A stretch of DNA of 40,268 nt from Paucidesulfovibrio gracilis DSM 16080 (lineage in GTDB: Bacteria; Desulfobacterota; Desulfovibrionia; Desulfovibrionales; Desulfovibrionaceae), in assembly GCF_900167125.1 (NCBI RefSeq), contig NZ_FUYC01000019.1:1-40268 (forward strand), given 5' to 3'. The notes below the pieces were generated by a model. That model did not search any database and was not told the DNA's origin. It saw only the letters and a list, made by a program, of their open reading frames with translations. The position numbers and the translations under genes are program-made. Below are positions 1 through 40,268 of this stretch, piece after piece; the stretch's first letter is position 1, and the number at the start of each line of letters is the position of its first letter.

Positions 1-53
1 AACCCCATTCTTCGGACTTTCAGAGATCAGGCCGCCGAACCAATTTGTTCGTG

Positions 54-466
54 GCGGCGAAGTGTGCTTCTAGGCGATCCGCCAAGTGGAGTCAAGTGCT
101 TTTTTCACTTTTTTTTCGAAGCGATCCGCCCCGAGACTCCGAAACACGTTCCGCTTGCGGCGGAGGAGCTTTCTAGGCTTTTGCCTTTTCGGAGTCAAGT
201 GCTTTTTGCAACTTTTTTTCAGGGCGTTTGCCCCGAGACTCCAATCCGCTCCCCGCTCATGCGGCGGAGGAGCTTTCTAGGCTTTTGCCTTTTCGGAGTC
301 AAGCGTTAATTTGCTTTTTTATGCGGAGCATATTGCCCCGGACGCCGAATCGCTCCCCGCCTTGTCGCGGAGGTGGATGTTTAGGCTTTCGCCCGAGTGG
401 AGTCAAGCACTTTTTTGCTTTTTTTCAAGGCGCTTGCCTTGCGACTCCGTTCACCTCCGCCGTCAG
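54..466 (+). repeat. four tandem ~104-bp structured repeat units
   Basis: Four head-to-tail imperfect copies (about 54-156, 157-259, 260-363, 364-466). The anchor GGAGTC recurs at 88, 191, 295 and 399, a period of 103-104. In each unit GGAGTC can pair with a downstream GACTCC (135, 237, 443; one mismatch at 341). Each unit also carries a GGC-loop-GCC hairpin before GGAGTC (73-83, 175-186, 279-290, 384-393), an AAGNN-T-rich-NNCTT hairpin followed by a T-run (94-110, 197-214, 301-316, 405-420), and another short hairpin (121-129, 222-233, 320-332, 427-440). In units 2-4 an outer stem closes the unit, perfect over nine pairs in unit 4 (367-375 with 452-460). Stem sequences change on both sides between units while pairing is kept, so selection on structure is likely. 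The T-runs favour the + strand. Short ORFs here are not credible genes. I infer an RNA or terminator-like or dispersed repeat element; function unknown. Confidence 0.8.
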
Positions 467-629
467 CGGCGAAGGGGGTATCTATGCAAATACGCACCTG
501 CGGTCAACCCCCCTTTGAACCACAAAACACTGTTCAAAATCTAACCACCTGTTAAAATAAGATAATTTTTTTATCTTTTCTCAACCCCTTTTGAGCCTTA
601 GACTCTATCCTTTGCCCATGCTCTTAGGC
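467..629. other. AT-rich intergenic stretch, no gene
   Basis: This stretch lies between the repeat array and the stop codon of the cPGS-like gene. It contains an AT-rich palindrome at 559-577 (AAGATAA, five T, TTATCTT). It also contains TTGAGCCT (591-598), which can pair with AGGCTCAA (626-633); the second arm covers the TGA stop of the leftward gene. No U-run follows that stem on either strand, so I do not call it an intrinsic terminator. I see no coding sequence. Confidence 0.5.
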
Positions 630-1946
630 TCAACCATTCAAGCGCCGTGTCAGACATGCCTCTAACCCATCTTCACTATTATCTTTATACGCGTACTCAA
701 CTCGAACCAAGGGTTTATCTACCTTTAGTATGCGCGTCAGGTCGATGGGAGTTGCGGACACAACGACATCGCAATCCGTTGCATTGATGGTCGCTTCCAA
801 GTCTCTGATTTGCTCCTTGGAATAGCCCATAGCCGGCAATATGGAGCCTATTTCGGGATACTTTTCAAACGTATCAAGTAATGTCCCTTGCAGGTAGGGC
901 CGTGGATCCACAATCTGCGCGACGTCATGACGCTGCGCCGCGACCACTCCGGCACCGAAGCGCATTTCTCCATGCGTAAGGGTTGGACCATCTTCCACGA
1001 CCAGAACCCGCGCCCCCCGCAACAGGTCTGGAGCGTCCACGATCAACTCGGACTCCGCCAGGATGATTTCCGCTACCGGGTTGCACTTCCGGATGGTTCG
1101 GCGCAACTGCTCAACATCTTCTGCATCGGCGCTGTCCACTTTATTGATGACCGCGATGTCACACATGCGCATATTCGTTTCACCCGGGTGGTAGGTTAAT
1201 TCATGGCCCACGCGGTGCGGATCAAAGACCACGATATTCACATCGGGGCGATAGAACGGGGTGTCATTGTTCCCGCCGTCCCAGACCACCACATCGGCCT
1301 CCTGCTCGGCACGCCGGAGGATTTTCTCGTAGTCCACGCCGGAATAAATGATGCCGCCCATGCGGATCACGGGTTCGTACTCTTCCCGCTCCTCAATGGT
1401 GCACTCGTGCCGATCCAGATCCGCATAGTCCGCAAAACGCTGGACTTCCTGTTTCAGCAGATCTCCGTACGGCATAGGGTGGCGGACAGCCACCACTCGC
1501 CGCCCCAGGGACTGCACAATCCGCATGACCTCCCGACTGGTTTGGGATTTACCGCATCCCGTGCGCACAGCACATACGGAAATCACGGGTTTAGAGGATT
1601 CCAGCATGGTATACGGCGCGCCAATGATCATAAAATCGGCACCGCACGCCGTGGCGATGGACGCTTTATGCATTACCTCCACATGCGGGATGTCGGAATA
1701 GGAAAAAACTACAAGATCTACCTGATACTTGCGAATCAGTTCTTCCAGCTGGTCGTCCGAAACAATGGGAATGCCGTCGGGATAGGCTGCTCCAGCCAGT
1801 ACGCCCGGATATTTTCGCCCATCGATATTGGGAATCTGCGTGGCTGTGAAGCAAACGACCCTGTACCGCTCGTTATTGCGGAAGTAGACGTTAAAATTAT
1901 GAAAATCCCTACCGGCGGCTCCCATGATGATGACGTTTTCGACCAT
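630..1946 (-). CDS. cyclic 2,3-diphosphoglycerate synthetase-like P-loop GTPase
   Basis: The 438-residue protein resembles the family named after archaeal cyclic 2,3-diphosphoglycerate synthetase, which has many bacterial members of unknown role. The N-terminal ~110 residues look like a Rossmann-type domain (VIIMGAAGRDFHNFN near residue 6). A P-loop (TGCGKS, about 129-134) and an NKVDS motif typical of GTP specificity (about residue 280) follow. The ATG at 1946 is chosen because GGAGGA precedes it by seven bases; an ORF extension to 1973 lacks such a site. It lies 60 bp downstream of the ornithine aminotransferase gene on the same strand, so the two are probably co-transcribed. Family assignment is firm. 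The actual substrate is not: cyclic diphosphoglycerate is an archaeal osmolyte, and nothing else here suggests its synthesis, so the name should not be read as a reaction. Confidence 0.85.
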   Translation of the reverse strand: MVENVIIMGAAGRDFHNFNVYFRNNERYRVVCFTATQIPNIDGRKYPGVLAGAAYPDGIPIVSDDQLEELIRKYQVDLVVFSYSDIPHVEVMHKASIATACGADFMIIGAPYTMLESSKPVISVCAVRTGCGKSQTSREVMRIVQSLGRRVVAVRHPMPYGDLLKQEVQRFADYADLDRHECTIEEREEYEPVIRMGGIIYSGVDYEKILRRAEQEADVVVWDGGNNDTPFYRPDVNIVVFDPHRVGHELTYHPGETNMRMCDIAVINKVDSADAEDVEQLRRTIRKCNPVAEIILAESELIVDAPDLLRGARVLVVEDGPTLTHGEMRFGAGVVAAQRHDVAQIVDPRPYLQGTLLDTFEKYPEIGSILPAMGYSKEQIRDLEATINATDCDVVVSATPIDLTRILKVDKPLVRVEYAYKDNSEDGLEACLTRRLNG

Positions 1947-39663: not shown

Positions 39664-39741
39664 CGGGATGTGGCTCAGCCTGGCTAGAGCGCTGCGTTCG
39701 GGACGCAGAGATCGCGCGTTCGAATCGCGCCATCCCGACCA
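39664..39741 (+). tRNA. tRNA-Pro, anticodon CGG
   Basis: A full cloverleaf is present. The acceptor stem CGGGATG pairs with CATCCCG, the D stem is GCTC/GAGC, and the anticodon stem CTGCG/CGCAG encloses loop TTCGGGA, giving anticodon CGG (codon CCG). The T arm is GCGCG-TTCGAAT-CGCGC, and discriminator A is followed by an encoded CCA end. All stems are perfect, so the gene should be functional. Confidence 0.97.
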
Positions 39742-39817: not shown

Positions 39818-40057
39818 GGGTCTACACCAAAAACGGGGGCAGTCACGAAAGCGAACTGTTCCGAGCATGTCCACTTACCCGCACAGCACCTTGACGCGTA
39901 AGCGGTAGTTTTCAAAATTCCTGAAGCCGTATGCACGGGGTCTACACCAAAAACGGGGGCAGTCACGAAAGCGAACTGTTCCGAGCATGTCCACTTACCC
40001 GCACAGCACCTTGACGCGTAAGCGGTAGTTCTCAAAATTCCTGAAGCCGTATGCGCG
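39818..40057. repeat. tandem 120-bp duplication of an IS element end
   Basis: Two head-to-tail copies, 39818-39937 and 39938-40057, each begin GGGTCTACACCAAAAACGGG. They are identical for about 117 bp except one base (T at 39911, C at 40031) and differ in the last few bases, where the outer copy breaks off. Each copy contains the element's outer end plus the reverse complement of the last ~19 codons of the transposase and its TAA stop. Only the inner copy is continuous with the transposase ORF. Confidence 0.9.
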
Positions 40058-40268
40058 TCGCTGGATCAGTTTCATTTTCCAGTGGAATCCTTCGGTGATC
40101 CCGTTGCTTCGCGCAAAACGAAACATGCAGGCGACCTCTTCCCGCCAGCTGTACAGCGTTCGTCCCAGGGTTTTTAGCGGGGCAAACGGAGCCTGCTTCA
40201 ATTGGGCTATCTTTTCAAGCAACTCCGCCACATGTTTACGGCAGGCTGTCTGATTGGTGCCTTTCACG
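39995..40268 (-). CDS. ISL3-type transposase, C-terminal part (runs off window)
   Basis: The last ~90 residues of a transposase are visible, reading leftward from the window edge to the TAA at 39995. The segment SNGITEGFHWKMKLIQRRAYGFRNFENYRLRV is characteristic of the C-terminal end of ISL3 (IS204/IS1001/IS1165) family DDE transposases, including the catalytic-region glutamate (TEG). The N-terminal part, with the first two catalytic aspartates, lies beyond the window, so intactness cannot be judged. A candidate element end is the GGGTCTACACC sequence at 39938, repeated at 39818. Confidence 0.85.
   Translation of the reverse strand, partial: VKGTNQTACRKHVAELLEKIAQLKQAPFAPLKTLGRTLYSWREEVACMFRFARSNGITEGFHWKMKLIQRRAYGFRNFENYRLRVKVLCG

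Follow-up and report, generated by a model that had tools for sequence, protein, structure and literature searches.

More than one promoter per operon is found in the rRNA operons of Streptomyces and Bacillus. In mycobacteria, the rrnA HMPR is described as a row of several tandem promoters before one rRNA operon, five in M. chelonae and two in M. tuberculosis, and is discussed in terms of promoter duplication (PMC10218544). The rrn P1-P2 pair of E. coli is described as tandem promoters with an AT-rich UP element and a GC-rich discriminator (PMC4696680). Among the papers listed by searches of the open-licence literature, none dealt with tandem rrn promoters in Desulfovibrio.

The DNA analysed here (the window) is a stretch of 40,268 nt from Paucidesulfovibrio gracilis DSM 16080, the contig NZ_FUYC01000019.1 (C19). 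A sequence-only reading had pointed to four tandem units of ~104 bp at 54–466; they are present, with a spacing of 102–104 bp. A DNA search of the same genome with the array returned three places (24 of 24 candidates scored): the starts of contigs C19 and C24, and the start of C42, which holds the inner end of the array. Window positions 1–199 match C42 without a single difference across the 199-base overlap. Past the overlap, C42 continues with TTGACA-17-TACAAA, a leader and a full 16S gene at 367–1920, with tRNA-Ile and tRNA-Ala downstream of 16S. The leader contains TCTTTGACAATTAAATAG, which we take to be a look-alike of the boxA antitermination site. Followed through the 199-base overlap of this draft assembly, the array is located directly before rRNA operons and in the same direction as 16S, which is probably why the assembly breaks there. 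The upstream regions of C19 and C24 are identical through base 511 and diverge from base 512; since their outer flanks are distinct, at least two rRNA operons carry the array. Identity to base 511 followed by divergence suggests gene conversion between operons, extending beyond the promoter array.

We interpret the array as the upstream control region of rRNA operons, most probably (about 0.94) a set of tandem sigma70-type promoters on the minus strand directed toward the 16S gene beyond the left edge of the window. In the direction of 16S, an A-tract precedes TTGACT in every unit, and a 17-bp spacer separates the latter from TAGAAA, TAGAAG or TAAACA. A fifth candidate promoter at 479–507 and a sixth on C42 would bring the number in tandem to six: the four ~104-bp units would lie between an outermost promoter and a final one adjoining the leader. 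The predicted features are as follows.

1–511, minus strand: stretch identical in C19 and C24 by contig comparison, the rrn upstream region that both share; beyond base 1, C42 carries promoter 6, the leader and 16S.
479–507, minus strand: promoter 1, outermost; -35 TTGACC at 502–507, 17-bp spacer, -10 TAGATA at 479–484; no A-tract.
407–428, minus strand: UP-element-like A-tract upstream of promoter 2, also supported by the position profile over 99 promoters.
378–406, minus strand: promoter 2 (unit 4); -35 TTGACT at 401–406, 17-bp spacer, -10 TAAACA at 378–383.
303–326, minus strand: A-rich sequence before promoter 3, with the A-run set farther back from the -35 than in units 1, 2 and 4 and not passing the strict test.
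274–302, minus strand: promoter 3 (unit 3); -35 TTGACT at 297–302, 17-bp spacer, -10 TAGAAA at 274–279.
199–224, minus strand: UP-element-like A-tract upstream of promoter 4.
170–198, minus strand: promoter 4 (unit 2); -35 TTGACT at 193–198, 17-bp spacer, -10 TAGAAA at 170–175.
96–120, minus strand: UP-element-like A-tract upstream of promoter 5.
67–95, minus strand: promoter 5 (unit 1); -35 TTGACT at 90–95, 17-bp spacer, -10 TAGAAG at 67–72.
399–448, minus strand: folded module of unit 4; closing stem arms at 443–448 and 399–404.
295–346, minus strand: folded module of unit 3; closing stem arms at 341–346 and 295–300, one mismatch.
191–242, minus strand: folded module of unit 2; closing stem arms at 237–242 and 191–196.
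88–140, minus strand: folded module of unit 1; closing stem arms at 135–140 and 88–93 (the latter in the -35 region), central hairpin at 116–134.

The strict pattern TTGACN-17-TA occurs six times in the 40-kb window, five times in the array (minus strand) and once elsewhere. A consensus promoter scan of window 1–640 gave no promoters in the array because it demands a final T in the -10 box; the -10 boxes TAGAAA, TAGAAG and TAAACA deviate from the E. coli consensus. The A-tracts are assigned from sequence alone: all four units have one before the -35, three of the four pass the strict test (AAAAA within 8 bases of the -35), and both the outermost promoter and the last one, on C42, are without. 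Plus-strand T-runs had earlier been noted; the meaningful strand is minus, on which these runs are the A-tracts before the -35. Farther out, a 447-aa ORF with a weak CobW/HypB/UreG-type match lies at 630–1973 on the minus strand, pointing toward the rrn promoters, and an A+T-rich palindrome near 549–575 is situated between the two.

Regions upstream of 16S were collected from the same family: 59 stretches plus our own region, of which 53 with at least 1250 nt, from 42 genomes, entered the first analysis. A second set of 19 further regions, outside that analysis, brought the total to 72. Among 85 listed 16S places, 78 were collected besides our own and 6 were left out. The 16S gene was located in at least 19 of 149 genomes with the Rfam model and in at least 64 of 247 by DNA search; at most two candidates per genome were scored, and therefore many rRNA operons were missed. 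In the 53 regions there were 98 strict promoters on the sense strand within 700 bp before 16S (92 excluding our own region), compared to 2 on the antisense strand, 1 in the far sense region and a mean of 1.2 in shuffles (largest 5), and the spacer length had its peak at 17 bp. The promoter signal holds in the 19 regions not used before, with 17 sense, 0 antisense and 1 far sense promoters (shuffle mean 0.54, largest 3). Counting within 800 bp, 15 of all 72 regions had no strict promoter, 28 had one, 29 at least two and 10 at least four. Long arrays are thus a minority among the 72 regions, and the share of multi-promoter regions is lower in the later set (only 2 of 19 with at least two).

Positions 10 to 5 before the -35 are occupied by A in 62–90% of 99 promoters, whose start regions are C/T-rich. 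Spacings between promoters cluster at 104–105 bp (about ten turns) and also at 90 bp; helical phasing of the promoters was dropped as an explanation, since the 90-bp cluster does not fit it. A third genome of the genus (89% complete, 230 contigs) gave no array match. Beyond the family, we scanned genome contigs for the two-promoter pattern and examined 80 loci among the matches listed, about 50 of them from Firmicutes and 14 from Desulfovibrionaceae, with some species repeated. A 16S motif lay within 1.5 kb downstream in 19 of these loci; in another 59 the locus itself ended within 800 bp on that side with no 16S seen, as expected where assemblies break at rRNA genes, and neither applied to 2.

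Tandem rrn promoters as such are of a known kind, here in an enlarged version; the unusual part of this array is the same set of hairpins predicted in the RNA across each unit. The stems named in the sequence-only reading are in the sequence, including GGAGTC/GACTCC with its one mismatch in unit 3 (GACGCC at 341–346). Minus-strand RNA of window 50–475 folds at -187 kcal/mol (z -7.69) and plus-strand RNA at -173 kcal/mol (z -4.85), and in neither case was any of 100 dinucleotide shuffles as good. Seven units, our four and three of a second species of the same genus, have one predicted fold in common. It consists of a start-proximal hairpin, a central hairpin, a further hairpin within the promoter spacer, and a closing stem in which the -35 region forms the 3′ arm. 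In an alignment of these units, paired cells make up 89.3%, some pairs being lost to a slight shift of register in row G001_b. The 13 G-U cells versus 4 A-C cells, counted by hand with arms picked by eye, favour sense RNA. Both-sided changes are confined to 3 pairs out of 20, each of which belongs to the central hairpin; the observed covariation measures were reached by 25 to 112 of 500 shuffles. Covariation is weak and not clearly beyond shuffles. The term covarying, used earlier for the hairpins, is thus justified only in part. Selection for a folded form, also proposed earlier, may still apply.

A covariance model built from the units, one of the checks that had been suggested, gave nine matches in our genome, each of them to a copy of the array on C19, C24 or C42, and among 39 family genomes two matched at E ≤0.01, both of this genus (101 of 1030 candidates scored). 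In the relatives' upstream regions, where the search recovered only 5 of the 7 units of its own building set, there were 19 weak matches (to E 1) outside the arrays of the genus. Seventeen overlap a strict rrn promoter, whether tandem or single, on the match strand; of the other two, one is antisense (L036) and one is without a strict promoter (L022). Shared promoter boxes may be the cause of these weak matches.

Fold tests across the family cover the first region set, excluding the 19 later regions. Pooled, 42 units from related genomes had a mean z of -1.76 in the sense and -1.14 in the antisense direction, against -0.22 in 106 controls, and DNA between promoters folded better than DNA before the first promoter (P = 3e-5). 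This P-value rises to 0.11 when genera are counted (with the better fold at internal rather than first promoters in 9 of 12), because the pooled test counts related genomes several times; sense folds better than antisense in 5 of 12 genera (P = 0.47). The wider structure trend is thus not significant by genus, and at 13 Desulfovibrionaceae loci the upstream promoter of a pair folds better than the inner one (-1.56 vs -0.77), against the trend. Pairing of the -35 with upstream RNA is not a family-wide feature either, with a mean duplex z of -0.17 for 56 internal and 0.00 for 44 first promoters (P = 0.24). Within our own array, four of the five internal promoters have duplex z values of -1.70, -0.58, -2.09 and -1.83, and the last has +0.54.

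We propose that every promoter of the array fires, that the A-tracts would be bound by alpha subunits of RNA polymerase, that the units would have arisen through duplication, and that the promoter outputs would sum to strong rRNA synthesis, probably with growth-rate control via the C/T-rich start regions. RNA begun at an outer promoter would cross the inner promoters and form a string of hairpins. A doubtful extension of this scheme is that every promoter unit would in addition specify an RNA module under selection, so that outer transcripts would carry one module per inner promoter, its closing stem containing the RNA copy of the -35. Such modules might keep the read-through RNA, which is untranslated and rich in purines, from pairing with the DNA again over A-tracts, or else prevent a Rho stop before the leader antitermination site is made, and in this manner let trains of polymerases cross working promoters. 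We give roughly even odds to the simpler version, in which these are promoters only, the RNA fold has no role, and the hairpins are a by-product of duplicated inverted-repeat units or serve as DNA sites for an activator; Fis sites are located upstream of E. coli rrn P1. The scarcity of compensatory changes, often matched by shuffles, argues for promoters only, as do the family-wide null result for -35 pairing and the genus-level fold contrasts. Against it speak the single fold common to seven units of the genus, the better folding of minus-strand RNA compared to its complement, and the central hairpin, which varies in sequence while pairing is kept, something that a protein site would not need.

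An array of small RNAs, or a family of RNAs borne by repeats (the sequence-only reading had suggested a small RNA of this kind), would account for strong folding together with a promoter in every unit, yet it appears very improbable: in window 1–1500 no Rfam model matches up to E 1, there is no terminator-like site in window 1–640, and the copies found sit at rrn contig ends. Short aborted transcripts from the outer promoters are conceivable. Palindromic units in several tandem copies had also suggested a dispersed element spread by a transposase. For such an element, of the REP or BIME type, the chance is now negligible, as the DNA search (24 of 24 candidates scored) and the model (101 of 1030 scored) found only array copies at three contig ends, and matches among 39 family genomes at E 0.01 were confined to our own and one other of the genus. 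Just as far-fetched, in our view, is a transcription stop of several hairpins serving a gene past the left edge, suggested by hairpins and plus-strand T-runs: the gene there is the rRNA operon, which starts on that side and runs leftward away from the window, and the plus-strand T-run precedes the central hairpin rather than trailing it. That the array is not a standard terminator had been said already, and none was found on either strand of window 1–640. The earlier statement that it is neither CRISPR nor coding sequence agrees with the features seen.

The opposite end of the window holds a different repeat. Two 120-bp copies, 99% alike, lie in 39818–40268, and the sequence after them recurs at the end of contig C23 and partly elsewhere (16 genome matches including its own place); the repeat resembles an insertion sequence lying where the contig breaks off. 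A tRNA gene at 39664–39738 on the plus strand, the only Rfam match over the gathering score, adjoins it.

Read as rRNA control regions, these loci add a sulfate-reducing family in which rrn promoter arrays reach six members at spacings of ~90–105 bp, and such arrays would explain why short-read assemblies break at them. If the RNA-module reading were true, it would describe a way of stacking strong promoters without interference, and the array would lend itself naturally to testing how strong promoters can be stacked and yet not block each other.

Among known systems, the array resembles the rrn operons of Streptomyces and Bacillus in having more than one promoter per operon, and many Firmicutes loci with paired promoters were among the matches listed in our scan. 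It shares with E. coli rrn P1-P2, as described, tandem promoters and an A-rich upstream element, but the number is six here and two in E. coli. Like the mycobacterial rrnA HMPR, it consists of several tandem promoters upstream of an rRNA operon; compared by description, it differs from the HMPR in its units repeated at ~104 bp, its A-tracts and its shared folded module.
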